Part shown: positions 11,370-23,199 of the stretch, piece after piece
How the letters are laid out: each line of letters opens with the position of its first letter
Position numbering within the stretch: position 1 is the first letter of the stretch
Source of the DNA: Sorex araneus
Lineage: Eukaryota > Chordata > Mammalia > Eulipotyphla > Soricidae
DNA: 64,000 nucleotides
Direction: 5' to 3'
NCBI RefSeq assembly: GCF_027595985.1
Contig: NC_073305.1
Span: forward strand, 24,332,028-24,396,027
Translations under genes and position numbers: made by a program
The notes under the pieces: model-generated
Told to the model about the DNA's origin: nothing
Seen by the model: the letters and a program-made list of their open reading frames with translations, nothing else
Databases searched by the model: none

Positions 11370-11385
11370 TAAAGTTTAAATCTTT
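11370..11385. repeat. L1 target-site duplication, 3' side
   Basis: The 16-bp word TAAAGTTTAAATCTTT, repeated without mismatch at 18037-18052 on the other side of the LINE-1. Confidence 0.95.
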
Positions 11386-11898
11386 TTTTTTTTTTTTTTA
11401 TTTATTTTTTTTTTCAGTTTTTAAATTTTTTTTTTTTTAAATTTATTTATTTTTAATTAGAGAATCACCGTGAGGGTACAGTTACAGATTTATACACTTT
11501 TGTGCTTATATTTCCCTCATACAAAGTTCGGGAACCCATCCCTTCACCAGTGCCCATTTTCCACCACCCGTAAACCCAGTGTCCCTCCCACCCTCCCCAA
11601 TCCCATCTCCCCCCCACCCCACCCTGCCACTGTGGCAAGGCATTCCCTTCTGTTTTCTCTCTCTAATTAGCTGTTGTGGTTTGCAATAAAGGTGTTGAGT
11701 GGCCGCTGTGCTCAGTCTCTAGCCCTCATTCAGCCCGCAACTCCCTTCCCCCACATGGCCTTCGACTACAATGTAGTTGGTGATCGCTTCTCTGAGTTGA
11801 CCTTTCCCCGGAACGTGAGGCCAGCCTCGAAGCCATGGAGTCAACCTCCTGGTACTTATTTCTACAGTTCTTGGGTGTTAGTCTCCCACTCTGTTATT
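11386..11898 (-). other. L1 3'UTR and A-rich tail
   Basis: In sense orientation this runs from the TAG stop of ORF2 to the poly(A). It contains a strongly G-rich tract (about 11583-11631 on the plus strand as C-runs), which offers several runs of three or more G in the sense RNA, then GGGCACTGGTGAAGGGATGG and the terminal CACGGTGATTCTC block. An AATAAA hexamer lies at the start of the A-rich tail. The GCACTGGTG...CACGGTGATT end is shared with the elements at 1200-1905, 20518-21150, 42659-43083 and 58130-58510. Confidence 0.9.
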
Positions 11899-14800
11899 CT
11901 ATATACCATAGATGAGTGCAATCTTTCTATGTCTGTCTCTCTCTATCTGACTCATTTCACTCAGCATGAAACTTTTCATGCCCATCCACTTAACTACAAA
12001 ATTCTTGACCTCCTTTTTTCTAACAGCTGCATAGTATTCCATTGTATAGATGTACCAAAGTTTCCTCAACCAGTCATCCGTTCTGGGGCATTCGGGTTTT
12101 TTCCAGATTCTGGCTATTGTAAACAGTGCTGCGATAAACATACATGTGCAGATGTTGTTTCGATTGTACTTTTTTGCCTCTCTGGGATATATTCCCAGCA
12201 GTGGTATTGCTGGGTCAAATGGGAATTCAATATCTAATTTTTTGAGAGTCGTCCAAATTGTTTTCCAGAAGGGCTGAACCAGTCGGCATTCCCACCAGCA
12301 GTGAAGAAGGGTCCCTTTCTCCCCACATCCTCTCCAACAGCGGTTGCTTTTGTTCTTTTGGATGTGTGCTAGTCTCTGTGGTGTGAGGTGGTATCTCATG
12401 GTTGTTTTGATCTGCATCTCTCTGATGATTAGTGATGTAGAACACTTTTTCATGTGCCTTTTGGCCATTCGTATTTCTTCCTTGGTAAAGTTTCCGTTCA
12501 TTTCTTTGCCCCATTTTTTGATGGGGTTGGATGTTTTCTTCTTGTAGAGCTCAACCAGTGCTTTATATACCATTGATATCAACCCCTTATCTGATGGGTA
12601 TTGTGTAAATATCCTTTCCCATTCTGTGGATAGTCTTTGTATTCTGGTCACTGTATCTCTTGCGGTGCAGAAGCTTTTTAGTTTAATGTAGTCCCATTTG
12701 TTGATCTCTGTTTTTACTAGATTGCTTAGTTCCGTGTCACCTTTGAAGATACCCTTATCTTCAATATCGTGGAGGGTTTCGCCGACCTTGTCTTCAATGT
12801 ACCTTATGGTTTGTGGTCTAATGTTGAGGTCTTTAATCCATTTTGATCTGACTTTTGTGCATGGTGTCAGGTCAAGGTCTAAACCCATTTTTTTGCATGT
12901 GGTTGTCCAGTTGTGCCAGCACCATTTGTTAAAGAGGCTTTCCTTGCTCCACTTCACTTCTCTTGCTCCCTTATCAAAGATTAGATGGTCATACATTTGG
13001 GGTTGTGTGTAGGGATATTCCACCCTGTTCCATTGGTCTATGGCTCTGCCTTTGTTCCAGTACCATGCTGTTTTAATTGTTACTGCTTTGTAGTAAAGTT
13101 TGAGGTTGGGGATGGTGATGCCTCCCATCATCTTTTTCCCAAGAATTGTTTTAGCTATCCTTGGACGTTTGTTATTCCATATGAATTTTAGGATTGCTTG
13201 ATCCATTTCTTTGAAGAATGTCATGGGTATATTTATAGGGATCGCATTGAATCTGTATAATGCTTTAGGGAGTATTGCCATTTTGACAACATTGATTCTC
13301 CCTATCCACGAGCAGGGTATATGTTTCCATTTCCTCATGTCCTCTTTGAGTTCATGGAGTAGCGTTATGTAGTTTTCTTTGTAAAGGTCTTTTACTTCCT
13401 TGGTTAAGCTGATTCCGAGGTACCTGATTTTCTGGGGCACGATTGTGAATGGGATTGCTTTTTTCATGTCCCTTTCCTCTGCCTCATTGTTTGCATATAT
13501 GAAGGCCATGGATTTTTGGGTATTGATTTTGTAGCCTGCAACTTTACTGTATAAGTCTATTGTTTCTAAGAGTTTCTTAGTAGAGGTTTTAGGCTTCTCT
13601 AGATATAGTATCATGTCGTCTGCAAATAGTGAGAGTTTGATTTCTTCCCTTCCTATCTGGATGCCCTTAATCTCTTTTTCTTGTCTAATAGCTATCGCAA
13701 GTACTTCCAGTACTATATTGAAGAGGAGTGGTGAGAGTGGGCATCCTTGTCTTGTGCCTGATCTCAGAGGAAAGGCCCTTAGTTTTTCCCCGTTGAGGAT
13801 AATGCTTGCCGTAGGCTTGTGATAGATGGCTTCGACTATCTTGAGGAAAGTTCCTCCAAACCCCATTTTGGCGAGGGTTTTCATCATGAAAGGATGTTGG
13901 ATCTTGTCAAATGCTTTCTCTGCATCTATTGATATGATCATATGGTTTTTATCTTTCCTTTTGTTGATATGCTGGATTATGTTGATTGATTTCCGAATGT
14001 TAAACCATCCTTGCATCCCTGGGATGAATCCCACTTGGTCGTGGTGTATGATCTTTTTGATGAGTTGTTGGATCCTATTTGCTAGTATTTTGTTGAGGAT
14101 CTTCGCATCGGTGTTCATCAGGGAAATTGGTCTGTAATTTTCTTTCTTAGTGGTGTCTTTGTTTGCTTTTGGTATTAGGGAGATATGTGCTTCATAGAAA
14201 CTGTTTGGGAGAGTTCCTGTTTTTTCAATTTCCTGGAAAAGTTTGAGGAAAACAGGCAATAGGTCTTCTTTAAATGTTTGGAAGAATTCGCCAGTGAAAC
14301 CATCTGGGCCTGGGCTTTTGTTTTTGGGGAGGTTTTTGATTACCGTTTCAATTTCCTTAACATTGATGGGTCTATTCAGGTATTCCAGGTCTTCTTTCAT
14401 CAGTCTTGGGAGATTGTAGGAATCAAGGAATCCATCCATTTCTTTTAGGTTCTCCTTTTTTGTGGCGTAAAGACTTTCAAAGTAGTCTCTAATGATCTTT
14501 TGAATCTCACTGGTTTCTGTTATGATGTCCCCCTTTTCATTTCTGATTCGATTTATTAGAGTTTTCTCTCTTTCTTTCTTTGTGAGACTTGCTAGCGGTT
14601 TATCAATCTTATTTATTTTCTCAAAGAACCAACTCTTTGTTTCATTGATCTTTCGGATTGTTTTTTTGGTTTCGATGTCATTAATTTCTGCTCTAATTTT
14701 TATTATTTCTTTCCTTCGGTCTGGTTTGGGGTCCTTTTTCTGGTCCTTTTCTAGGGTCTTGAGTCGTAAAGTCAAGCTATCTATGTGGGTCCTTTCTTCC

Positions 14801-15717
14801 TTCCTGAGGAATGCTTGGAGAGCTATAAATTTTCCCCTTAACACGGCTTTCGCTGCGTCCCATAGGTTTTGGTAGCTCGTGTCTTCATTCTCATTTGTTT
14901 CTAAGTATCTTTTGATTTCTTCCTTGATTTCCTTCTTGACCCACTCATTGTTCAACATGGAATTGTTTAATTTCCAGGTGTTTGATTTGATTTTCCGTAT
15001 TTGTGGGTGGTTAGCTTCTATCTTCAGCGCATCGTGGTCTGAAAAGATGGTTGATACAATTTCTATTTTTCCGATTCGATTGAGGTATGTTCTGGGGCCC
15101 AGTACATGGTCTATTTTTGAAAATGTTCCATGTGCACTGGAAAAGAATGTGTATTCTTTCTTTTTGGGGTGTAAGGCCCTGTATAGGTCTATTAGGCCTC
15201 TCTCTTCAATTTCTTCATTCAGGGTCAGTGTTTCCTTGTTGAGTTTTGTTCTTGTGGATCTATCTAGAGGTGATAAGGCCGTATTGAAGTCTCCGACTAC
15301 AATTGTGCTGTTAGTGATGTCCTCTTTGAAGTCTGTTAGGAGTCGTTTTAAATATTTAGCCGGTCGTTCGTTAGGAGCATATACGTTTAAGAGTGTGATT
15401 TCTTCCTGTTGTACATATCCCTTGATAAACAGAAAATGACCTTCGCTGTCCCTTTTGATCTTTTTCATCCTGAAATCTATGTTGTCGGATACCAGGATGG
15501 CCACTCCAGCTTTTTTAAGGGGGTTGTTTGCTTGGAGGATTGTTTTCCATCCTTTGACTTTGAGTCTATGTTTACTCTGTTTGTTCAGGTGTGTTTCTTG
15601 CAGGCAACAGAATGTTGGGTTTAATTTCCGGATCCATTTAGCTACTCTGTGTCTCTTGATAGGTGCATTTAGGCCATTGACATTGAGAGAGATTATTGTG
15701 ATGTGGTTTTGTGTCAT
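11899..15717 (-). CDS. L1 ORF2: L1 ORF2 protein (endonuclease / reverse transcriptase)
   Basis: 1272 codons starting at ATG (15717-15715; A at -3) and ending in TAG. Human ORF2p, for comparison, is 1275 aa. It nicks target DNA and primes reverse transcription of L1 RNA, acting mainly on its own transcript but also on SINE and mRNA templates. The N-terminal apurinic-type endonuclease has its expected residues: N12 in SLNVNGLN, E41 in QETHL, Y113, D143 and N145 in GDFN, D203 and the SDHD motif with H228. The reverse transcriptase spans roughly residues 450-760, including [20 protein letters not shown] and the catalytic FADD near residue 700. The C-terminal zinc-knuckle-like motif CWRGC-x7-H-x4-C occupies about 1127-1144. 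No stop or frameshift is seen. Antisense open frames inside it are shadows. Confidence 0.97.
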
Positions 15718-15759
15718 CTTTCTGTGGGATTTGTTGTTCTTATGGGGCTCCTCCTTGCC
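15718..15759 (-). other. L1 inter-ORF spacer
   Basis: 42 bp between the TAA of ORF1 and the ATG of ORF2, without an intervening long upstream frame. This fits the unconventional downstream translation known for L1 ORF2. No IRES can be judged from sequence. Confidence 0.85.
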
Positions 15760-16722
15760 TTACAGTAGCCCCTTTAGACCTTCTTTCAAGATTGGTTTTG
15801 AGTCTATGAAGGACCTGAGCTGTTGTTTATCCGAGAAGTAGTGTATGTTTCCTTCGAGTTTGAGTGAGAGTTTAGCCGGATAAAGTATTCTTGGTGAGGC
15901 ATTCATTTCGTTGAGTTTTTTCACTATGTCCCACCATTGTCTTCGGGCTCGGAGGGTTTCTTCTGACAGATCGGCCGTAAATCTGAGGGGTGCTCCTTTG
16001 TATGTGATTTCCCTCTTTGACCTTGCTACTTGTAGAATTGTGTCTCTATCTACAGCATCCGCCATTCTGACTATGATATGCCTTGGAGTCTTTTTATTTG
16101 GGTCTCTTTTTGCTGGCACTCTTCGGACTTCTTGTATCTGGACGCCTGCCTTCTCCAGCTCTGGGAATTTCTTAGCGATGATGTCTTTGACTATGTTTTT
16201 TTCATTGGGGTTACTTCCCTGTGGTTCTGGTACTCCAATGATTCTTATGTTGTTCCTCTTGAAGTCATCCCCCAGGGCTCTGATTCGCTCTATAGCCATT
16301 TTGAGGTCTTTGGCCATGATTTGTTGCTGTCTGTAAGCTTTCTGCAGCTCATCCTCAAGCTCGCTGATTCTGTCTTCGGCTGTAGTCATTCTGCTGTTGA
16401 GGGCATCTAGTGAGATTTTTATTTCATCTACCGATTGCTTTATTTGTGAGACTTCGGTTCGAAGGTTTGAAATTTCTGCTCTCATTTCTGCTCTCATTTC
16501 TTCGTGTATTTTCTTGGTAGACCGTTCCAGCGCTTGATTCATCTCCTCCCTTAATTTATTGGATGTCTGTTCCATATTTGCTTGGAGTAGGTCGACTCTC
16601 CTCCATATTTCCTCTCTGAATTGTTTATCTGAGAGGTCGTAGATGTTGGGAGACTCTTTTGAGGTTTCTAGTATCTTTTGTTCTCCCTCTCTTGGTGGAG
16701 GGGATTTTCGCTGTTTCTTCAT
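15760..16722 (-). CDS. L1 ORF1: L1 ORF1 protein (RNA-binding trimer, chaperone)
   Basis: 320 codons from the ATG at 16722-16720 (A at -3) to TAA. The open frame extends nine codons further upstream only through a GTG at 16749, so the ATG giving MKKQRKSPPPREGEQ is the sensible start. The protein coats L1 RNA and is a nucleic-acid chaperone in the cytoplasmic RNP. Layout: basic N-terminus (1-20); long heptad-rich coiled coil (about 35-150), where EEMRAEMRAEIS shows a four-residue tandem duplication; RRM-like domain from about 157 (NNIRIIGVPE) to 240 with RHIIVRM; and C-terminal domain (about 245-310) with RQWWDIVKKL and YPAKLSLKLEG. Human ORF1p is 338 aa, so the length is normal. No disabling change is seen. 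Confidence 0.96.
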   Translation of the reverse strand: MKKQRKSPPPREGEQKILETSKESPNIYDLSDKQFREEIWRRVDLLQANMEQTSNKLREEMNQALERSTKKIHEEMRAEMRAEISNLRTEVSQIKQSVDEIKISLDALNSRMTTAEDRISELEDELQKAYRQQQIMAKDLKMAIERIRALGDDFKRNNIRIIGVPEPQGSNPNEKNIVKDIIAKKFPELEKAGVQIQEVRRVPAKRDPNKKTPRHIIVRMADAVDRDTILQVARSKREITYKGAPLRFTADLSEETLRARRQWWDIVKKLNEMNASPRILYPAKLSLKLEGNIHYFSDKQQLRSFIDSKPILKEGLKGLL

Positions 16723-17040
16723 ATTGTCACGGAAGTGCAGAGTTGGCACCTTGTAGTTCTTTATTCCTCTTCCTTTTTGTGGGAAGAAGGGGCTCCGATT
16801 GTGCTAAACTTCCCTTATTCACTGATAGCTTTTATAGTGTCAGCCTAAGCTAATGGCTGTTTTGCGTAAATGTTTGAGCTCGCAAAAGTGAGTTTTCAAA
16901 GGAATACACAGTACGGATTGGGCTGAGGTAGCAAAGAATAAGTGCGGCCGCGTTAGCGGCCGCCGCTCCGGAAAGAAGCCACGCCCACTTTTTAGGCCAC
17001 GCCCCCTAAGATGAGGACACGCCCCTAAGCAGCAGAGTGG
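16723..17040 (-). promoter_or_regulatory. L1 5'UTR tether (non-monomeric)
   Basis: Single-copy leader between the monomers and ORF1. Nearest the monomers it carries three CACGCCC boxes (about 16979-17022; in L1 sense GGGCGTGG), typical KLF/SP-type GC/GT boxes. Next is a CpG-dense perfect inverted repeat of two GCGGCCGC words separated by GTTA (16944-16963). Toward ORF1 the base composition returns to ordinary. Confidence 0.8.
16979..17022 (-). promoter_or_regulatory. Three GC/GT boxes (CACGCCC)
   Basis: CCACGCCCAC, CCACGCCCCC and ACACGCCCCT repeat at roughly 19-21-bp spacing. The sequence fits SP/KLF-family recognition; binding is inferred. Confidence 0.6.
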
Positions 17041-18036
17041 GGATTGGTCAGGATCCGACGGCGGCGGCGGACAGGTGCCAGGCAGGGGCTTCAGGAGAAG
17101 CCCCGAGCCGCGGCGGGCAGGGGGCGGGGAGGGGACTTCTCCGCGCTGAGGCAGGCTCTCCAAGGGATTGCCTGTTTACCTGCAGGATGGAGATTGGTCA
17201 GGATCCGACGGCGGCGGCGGACAGGTGCCAGGCAGGGGCTTCAGGAGAAGCCCCGAGCCGCGGCGGGCAGGGGGCGGGGAGGGGACTTCTCCGCGCTGAG
17301 GCAGGCTCTCCAAGGGATTGCCTGTTTACCTGCAGGATGGAGATTGGTCAGGATCCGACGGCGGCGGCGGACAGGTGCCAGGCAGGGGCTTCAGGAGAAG
17401 CCCCGAGCCGAGGCGGGCAGGGGGCGGGGAGGGGACTTCTCCGCGCTGAGGCAGGCTCTCCAAGGGATTGCCTGTTTACCTGCAGGATGGAGATTGGTCA
17501 GGATCCGACGGCGGCGGCGGACAGGTGCCAGGCAGGGGCTTCAGGAGAAGCCCCGAGCCGCGGCGGGCAGGGGGCGGGGAGGGGACTTCTCCGCGCTGAG
17601 GCAGGCTCTCCAAGGGATTGCCTGTTTACCTGCAGGATGGAGATTGGTCAGGATCCGACGGCGGCGGCGGACAGGTGCCAGGCAGGGGCTTCAGGAGAAG
17701 CCCCGAGCCGCGGCGGGCAGGGGGCGGGGAGGGGACTTCTCCGCGCTGAGGCAGGCTCTCCAAGGGATTGCCTGTTTACCTGCAGGATGGAGATTGGTCA
17801 GGATCCGACGGCGGCGGCGGACAGGTGCCAGGCAGGGGCTTCAGGAGAAGCCCCGAGCCGAGGCGGGCAGGGGGCGGGGAGGGGACTTCTCCGCGCTGAG
17901 GCAGGCTCTCCAAGGGATTGCCTGTTTACCTGCAGGATGGAGATTGGTCAGGATCCGACGGCGGCGGCGGACAGGTGCCAGGCAGGGGCTTCAGGAGAAG
18001 CCCCGAGCCGCGGCGGGCAGGGGGCGGGGAGGGGAC
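17041..18036 (-). promoter_or_regulatory. L1 promoter: ~6.6 tandem 150-bp monomers
   Basis: Units start at 17041, 17191, 17341, 17491, 17641, 17791 and 17941; the last is cut after 96 bp. Each holds ATTGGTCA (a CCAAT box in L1 sense), a GGCGGCGGCGG triplet, CAGGGGGCGGGGAGGGG (GC box) and a PstI-like CTGCAG. The units are essentially identical except for one C/A site in the CCGAGCCG(C/A)GGCGGG word, which reads C,C,A,C,C,A,C along the plus strand (A at 17411 and 17861). Because 150 is divisible by three, the array stays open in several frames (for example 17037-18131, plus), but these repeated polypeptides are not evidence of a gene. Tandem monomers of this kind act as internal Pol II promoters in rodent L1s. 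Confidence 0.93.
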
Positions 18037-18052
18037 TAAAGTTTAAATCTTT
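18037..18052. repeat. L1 target-site duplication, 5' side
   Basis: Exact copy of the 16 bp at 11370-11385. It marks the 5' junction of the LINE-1, which falls directly after a GGGGACT word of the outer monomer. Confidence 0.95.
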
Positions 18053-22693: not shown

Positions 22694-23060
22694 TTCTTTT
22701 TCTTCTTCTTCTTCTTCTTCTTCTTCTTCTTCTTCTTCTTCTTCTTCTTCTTCTTCTTCTTCTTCTTCTTCTTCTTCTTCTTCTTCTTCTTCTTCTTCTT
22801 CTTCTTCTTCTTCTTCTTCTTCTTCTCCTTCTCCTCCTTCTTCTCCTCCTCCTCCTCCTCCTCCTCCTCCTCCTCCTCCTCCTCCTCCTCCTCCTCCTCC
22901 TCCTTCTCCTTCTCCTCCTTCTCCTTCTCCTTCTCCTTCTCCTTCTCCTTCTCCTTCTCCTTCTCCTTCTCCTTCTCCTTCTCCTTCTCCTTCTCCTTCT
23001 TCTCCTTCTCCTCCTCCTTCTCCTTCTCCTTCTCCTCCTCCTTCTCCTTCTCCTTCTCCT
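22694..23060. repeat. (TTC/CTC/CTTCTC)n polypyrimidine microsatellite
   Basis: Three zones: about 42 perfect TTC triplets (22701-22826), a CTC-rich zone (about 22843-22903), and a CTTCTC hexamer zone (about 22904-23060). The complement is pure GAA/GAG. The 130-residue poly-leucine frame on the plus strand and the Lys/Glu frame on the minus strand are products of the repeat and not genes. Confidence 0.98.
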
Positions 23061-23199
23061 TATGAGGTACTGGAGATGGAGTAAGAGTTGCCCATTTGCA
23101 AGGCAAGGGAACCTTGACCCCAGTGCTCTCTTTCTTTCTCTCTTTTGCCTTGAGATTAATTATCTTTAAGAAATTCTTAATTCTCACAAAAAATAAAAG

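Follow-up and report, generated by a model that had tools for sequence, protein, structure and literature searches.

A recent full-length LINE-1 copy from a young multi-copy family of Sorex araneus, with promoter arrays of variable length

We examined a LINE-1 (L1) element at positions 11386 to 18036, on the minus strand, of a 64,000-nucleotide stretch of the Sorex araneus genome (the window; contig C4:24332028-24396027). We conclude with high confidence that this element, here called window L1, was inserted recently and is a full-length member of a young LINE-1 family with many copies. Window L1 could be competent for retrotransposition, and no offspring of it was detected among the candidates scored or read. 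All searches were made in one assembly of 2.41 Gb and 65 contigs, in which the other LINE-1 loci were labeled L009 to L049. Because window L1 is one of many near-identical copies, the sequence comparisons indicate that it reflects a busy LINE-1 family and is not a rare surviving source element.

The family and the age of window L1

The size of the family was assessed with queries from different parts of the element. A 301-bp monomer query of the assembly returned at least 164 matches at 39 or more promoter array loci (counted by eye, window L1 included). Element bodies were fetched from 20 of the 38 other array loci, and two copies (L046 and L047) were added later. All 20 copies fetched first were full length and 99.0 to 99.8% identical to window L1 over 5582 bp, and 16 carried a target site duplication (TSD) of 12 to 19 bp. 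A genome search for near-identical copies, proposed in an earlier, sequence-only reading of the window, thus found many of them. That reading had also held the intact state of window L1 to be unusual, which was not borne out: both open reading frames (ORFs) were full length in 18 of the 23 copies read, window L1 included. Five copies had broken ORFs (L022, L023, L024, L025, and L047, the last through a 1-bp deletion in ORF2), and L046 had full-length ORFs and a 38-bp deletion in the tether, the nonrepeated part of the 5' untranslated region (UTR). The best 40 of 635 candidates in a 3' UTR search were all 100% identical after rounding, and four of them, window L1 included, shared the top score. 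An ORF2 stretch (14250 to 14550; 301 bp) matched 39 other loci on contig C1 at 539 bits, versus 544 bits for itself (best 40 of 754).

Less complete relatives were also found. Two are 5' truncated (L041 and L042), and one found via its 3' UTR, L043 (C5:215834550-215841250), is a 98.6% relative with a broken ORF2. In L043 the tether is longer by ∼300 bp and contains two related blocks, each of ∼90 nucleotides, and only 77 nucleotides of monomer are present. At L028, a second 3' L1 fragment (positions 1573 to 2392; 820 bp, 98.3% identical) lies beside the full-length copy. Decayed copies had been reported elsewhere in the window as well; this held to the extent of five weak nhmmer matches of 76 to 306 nucleotides (E up to 0.01), of which the 3' UTR accounts for four, and a tblastn search of the rest of the window with ORF2 gave nothing at E up to 1.

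Window L1 carried 5 private changes in 5582 bp when 21 copies were compared (range, 3 to 15 per copy), and all five were still private after L046 and L047 were added. The small number argues for a young element rather than an old one with many private mutations, and window L1 would accordingly be a recent insertion. At substitution rates of 2.2e-9 to 5e-9 per site and year, which have not been measured for shrews, its age would be about 0.2 to 0.4 million years; this is an upper bound, because some of the private changes may come from an unread parent. The monomer array holds 80 CpG in 1000 bp, with an observed/expected ratio of 0.71 compared to 0.16 to 0.19 in the rest of the window. In a maximum-likelihood tree, window L1 grouped with L010, L023, and L015 (100/99), with the bootstrap not settled. 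Over 1131 bp, the truncated copy L041 differed from window L1 only at two of the private sites, 12495 and 12136, and is a sibling of window L1.

To read selection in the family, ORF2 variants were counted over the 21 copies, each variant once and without placement on a tree. There were 61 nonsynonymous and 47 synonymous variants, where neutrality would give a nonsynonymous fraction of 0.759 (omega-like ratio, 0.41; p 7.5e-6), and without CpG sites there were 44 and 35 (0.37; p 2e-5). For ORF1 in these copies, the same test detected no significant deviation: the counts were 25 and 13 (p 0.13), and 20 and 7 once CpG sites were removed (p 0.45). The nonsynonymous/synonymous check that had been suggested for ORF2 and related copies thus shows that ORF2 has been under purifying selection across the family. 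This would mean that the lineage replicated with a working ORF2, and it says little about any single copy. In a four-gamete test on informative sites outside CpGs, 279 of the 1128 site pairs were incompatible, so that any tree is obscured by recombination or by mutations that arose more than once. In the alignment of 23 copies, body sites 381 and 623 show all four allele combinations among six close copies (window L1, L010, L015, L023, L046, and L047), which points to recombination or gene conversion among L1 elements.

Encoded proteins, competence, and the source-element question

The claim that both ORFs are uninterrupted was confirmed. ORF1 begins with an ATG at 16722, which gives 320 residues; the start in the ORF list was a GTG further upstream. 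ORF2p is colinear with human ORF2p over residues 3 to 1271 (1859 bits). Its endonuclease spans approximately residues 9 to 228 (Pfam Exo_endo_phos, E 9.2e-18; structure 1vyb, 302 bits). The reverse transcriptase spans approximately residues 515 to 770 (RVT_1, E 1.8e-43), with D598, F603, D700, and D701 present (FADD), and an intact 18-residue Cys/His motif (C-x3-C-x7-H-x4-C) lies at residues 1127 to 1144. Ten endonuclease residues and four reverse transcriptase residues, placed via the alignment at what we take to be their human positions, agree with human ORF2p, so that the presence of the endonuclease residues, FADD, and C-terminal Cys motif, as first described, holds residue by residue. Among solved structures, compared by bits, L1 ORF2p scored 1859 and R2 at most 100; the element would therefore be classed as a LINE-1, nearer to L1 than to other non-long-terminal-repeat clades. 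In ORF1p, an L1 RBD-like domain (PF02994) and a dsRBD-like domain (PF17490) both exceeded the Pfam cut-offs, residues 107 to 318 matched human ORF1p structures (2ykp, from residue 107), and the coiled-coil region gave only Filament and CCDC22_CC matches, both under the curated cut-offs. Human L1HS (8uw3, 9k6g, and 8sxt) is thus alike in its two ORFs, its colinear ORF2p, the endonuclease and reverse transcriptase residues checked, the Cys/His motif, and the C-terminal half of ORF1p (2ykp), as well as in its A tail and TSD.

With open ORFs, catalytic residues, and a full-length 5' UTR, window L1 has the structural features expected of a retrotransposition-competent element. The family is likely to be competent. 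For window L1 itself, competence is no more than plausible, because the private ORF2 change R1075G hits a residue common to the siblings read and human ORF2p. The view that the copy may still be active is plausible: intactness, full length, youth, and selection on ORF2 in the family favor it, and R1075G at a conserved residue counts against it. Some points weigh against our overall reading. The copies compared were picked through perfect hits of the monomer query, which skews the sample to young ones; R1075G falls on a residue conserved with human ORF2p; and offspring of window L1 were not detected among the copies read or by the tag in its 3' tail, with most candidates unscored or unread.

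A young copy that looks intact and is defective or weak, through R1075G close to where the C-terminal region of ORF2 begins and with K440M possibly adding to the effect, is a substantial minority possibility in our estimate. All 25 other copies read over 12495 keep the other base and human ORF2p has Arg there, a difference of the kind that the earlier reading had named as possible counterevidence; R1075, however, is outside the catalytic and Cys/His residues checked. The opposite proposal, that window L1 is a hot source element that seeded other copies, draws on its intact ORFs, its seven-monomer promoter, and its very young age, and it is improbable in light of where the private changes were sought. 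Of the 36 matches that scored slightly below the best in the 3' UTR search, 11 distinct loci were read (L032 to L040, L023, and L046; L040 is the L047 locus). The changes at 12495 and 12136 were in none of the three other loci that tie with window L1 for the best score in that search (best 40 of 635). Among other loci read over each site, the private change at 12136 was absent from 31 of 31 (the truncated L038 and L039 do not reach it), that at 12495 from 25 of 25, and that at 14399 from 23 of 23. Window L1 was the sole top match at 14250 to 14550 (best 40 of 754), a search that a carrier of the 14399 change with one other difference would escape. The tail tag, a pattern that fixed the tail start, had a single occurrence in the assembly when sought at the tested spacing, that of window L1. 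The search for 3' offspring thus found none among the candidates scored or read, and the description of window L1 as a good candidate source element was not supported, as no copy examined carries its private changes or tail tag.

The insertion itself bears on how window L1 arose. The junctions and the TSD showed the boundaries first given for the element to be exact, and they confirmed that a perfect 16-bp TSD brackets it; this 16-mer (TAAAGTTTAAATCTTT) is the sole common string of at least 10 bp between the compared flank ends. Rebuilt across the junctions, the empty site reads 5'-ATCTTT/AAAATT-3' on the plus strand (the primer strand). The L1 endonuclease prefers TTTT/AA, and the target site of window L1 appears close to that preference. 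TSD, A tail, and endonuclease-type target site are all present, and the left flank was found at this one place in the assembly, with no second haplotype of the site. In the mechanism that we propose, RNA polymerase II would start inside the most 5' monomer, ORF1p and ORF2p would bind their own RNA, ORF2p would nick the target at 5'-ATCTTT/AAAATT-3' and prime on the poly(A) tail, and reverse transcription would run back to the RNA 5' end. Window L1 would be the product of this target-primed reverse transcription. That it is intact through gene conversion or segmental duplication instead is very hard to credit: the mosaic variants seen as incompatible site pairs in the four-gamete test would suit such an origin, but the perfect TSD, the A tail, and the single occurrence of the left flank do not, and mosaicism could predate the insertion, by recombination between L1 templates.

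Layout, 3' tails, and features of the window

In its own direction, window L1 consists of a TSD, the monomer array, the tether, ORF1, a spacer, ORF2, the 3' UTR, an A-rich tail, and the second TSD. Its features and private changes are listed below.

Features of window L1 and of its insertion site, in window positions
Feature	Positions	Strand	Remarks
TSD copy at L1 3' end	11370-11385	.	TAAAGTTTAAATCTTT; junction reading
A-rich 3' tail	11386-11455	-	Contains AATAAATAAA and several A-runs
Tail insert	11415-11425	-	TTTAAAAACTG, between two A-runs
3' UTR	11456-11898	-	443 bp
G-rich polypurine stretch in 3' UTR	11583-11624	-	Potential G-quadruplex
ORF2	11899-15717	-	1272 residues
Silent ORF2 change at F1194	12136	-	Private
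ORF2 R1075G	12495	-	Private; R in other copies read and in human ORF2p
ORF2 K440M	14399	-	Private; N in human ORF2p
Inter-ORF spacer	15718-15759	-	42 nucleotides
ORF1	15760-16722	-	320 residues
Tether (nonrepeated 5' UTR)	16723-17037	-	315 bp
Two tether changes	16942 and 16859	-	Private; checked in copies read only
Promoter array	17038-18036	-	150-bp monomers
TSD copy at L1 5' end	18037-18052	.	

Short inserts between two A-runs, such as TTTAAAAACTG in window L1, were seen by eye in 8 of 33 tails (window L1, L010, L012, L016, L017, L029, L036, and L039), and the tail of L046 is a possible ninth. The insert of L036 is presumably the head of a shrew SINE. These inserts would fit either short 3' transductions or filler at the target. 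No parent carrying the window L1 insert was found in the assembly at the tested spacing. Since TTTAAAAAC is also present in the right flank of window L1, target-templated filler is possible for this insert. Elsewhere in the window, a 368-bp TTC-rich microsatellite (22694 to 23061) lies beneath spurious long ORFs on both strands.

Promoter arrays and their growth

The promoter array of window L1 comprises six complete 150-bp monomers plus a seventh that is cut to ∼99 nucleotides. Arrays were read at 27 loci (window L1, L009 to L028, and L044 to L049) and held 3 to 31 monomers, with a median of 7 when the incomplete monomer at the 5' end is included. Four of them (L044, L045, L048, and L049) were chosen for their length; among the other 23, only L027 had more than 10 monomers. 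Monomers within one array were almost identical. The 5' ends of 22 of the 27 arrays fell at monomer phase 44 to 83 (Rayleigh R, 0.68, a value reached in 0 of 100,000 random sets). The promoter array of window L1 had been called complete, a term justified by its 5' end in this common phase.

The monomer has what we take to be a CCAAT box from position 141 and a GTAAACA core at position 9, which we label forkhead-like on the same footing. The common 5' ends, at monomer positions 45 to 84, lie 54 to 93 nucleotides downstream of the CCAAT box, a usual distance for such a box. We infer that these 5' ends would mark the transcription start of the parent RNA. With tandem monomers, a tether, and phased 5' ends, the promoter of window L1 has the features of the monomer type, as in mouse, so far as its sequence tells.

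The human L1 5' UTR is single and nonrepeated, and the shrew 5' UTR, as tandem 150-bp monomers plus a tether, differs from it. The mouse L1Md A/T/G elements resemble the shrew family in layout; they share tandem monomers with a tether, 5' ends in one phase, variable array length, and recombination between elements (PMC6454616 and PMC9022269). The clustered 5' ends in mouse have been read as marking where transcription of the parent RNA began, and one mouse array has 50 monomers, so that long arrays are not new (PMC6454616). The mouse monomer is ∼200 to 214 bp, versus 150 bp in the shrew; the mouse YY1 motif GCCATCTT was not found in the shrew monomer or tether, and the near identity of the shrew monomers within an array is a further difference. 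Outside the rodents, horse L1 also has tandem 5' UTR repeats, with 2 to 3 repeats in type 1 (PMC5872511), compared to the 3 to 31 shrew monomers, partial counted.

Single-base variants were used to follow how arrays are built. A T147C substitution marks the tether-proximal monomer in 26 of the 27 arrays; in L015 that monomer instead ends at 137. Eleven arrays had a substitution other than T147C in at least two monomers, each such substitution being confined to one array. In five of these 11 informative arrays (window L1, L026, L028, L048, and L044), variants recur every three monomers. Counted from the tether, a C-to-A change (plus strand) is in monomers 3 and 6 of window L1, the repeated variant of L026 is in monomers 1 and 4, and that of L028 is in monomers 2, 3, 5, and 6. 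L048 has one variant in monomers 3, 6, and 9, one in 6 and 9, and an irregular third (5, 8, 12, and 14). The 31-monomer array of L044 (C2:304239600-304245600) shows a two-on, one-off pattern through much of its length. Pooled over the 11 arrays, 33 pairs were at spacing 3, versus a permuted mean of 23.9 (0 of 5000 permutations), and without L027, L049, and L044 there were 8, versus 3.8 (63 of 5000). No such excess was found at the other spacings from 1 to 7 in the same test.

This pattern suggests growth by 450-bp blocks of three monomers; variants that repeat in blocks inside single elements would fit block duplication better than a model in which monomers join the 5' end one by one. Several observations run the other way. 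Spacing 1 is the main one in L014, L016, L027, L046, and L049, and spacing 2 in L025; spacing 3 had been seen in window L1 before the test was made, and the linked variants of L048 were counted separately. Tentatively, and with more doubt than belief, we propose that the L1 promoters of this lineage lengthen within individual elements through successive duplications of 450-bp blocks, up to 31 near-identical monomers, with a block size that would be set by length-limited slippage or strand transfer and not by one-monomer addition or free unequal crossing-over. For mouse arrays, second-strand priming and unequal crossing-over have been named, with signs of both (PMC6454616). Among the titles listed by a literature search, with subscription journals mostly outside it, none was on L1 promoter monomers in shrews.

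Window L1 itself is an ordinary, well-preserved LINE-1, and the growth pattern of the arrays is the more noteworthy result. With many recent full-length copies whose monomers are nearly identical, single-base variants are natural markers of array growth. How L1 arrays are extended is still open in mouse, and a nonrodent family with arrays of 3 to 31 units among the 27 read allows an independent test.

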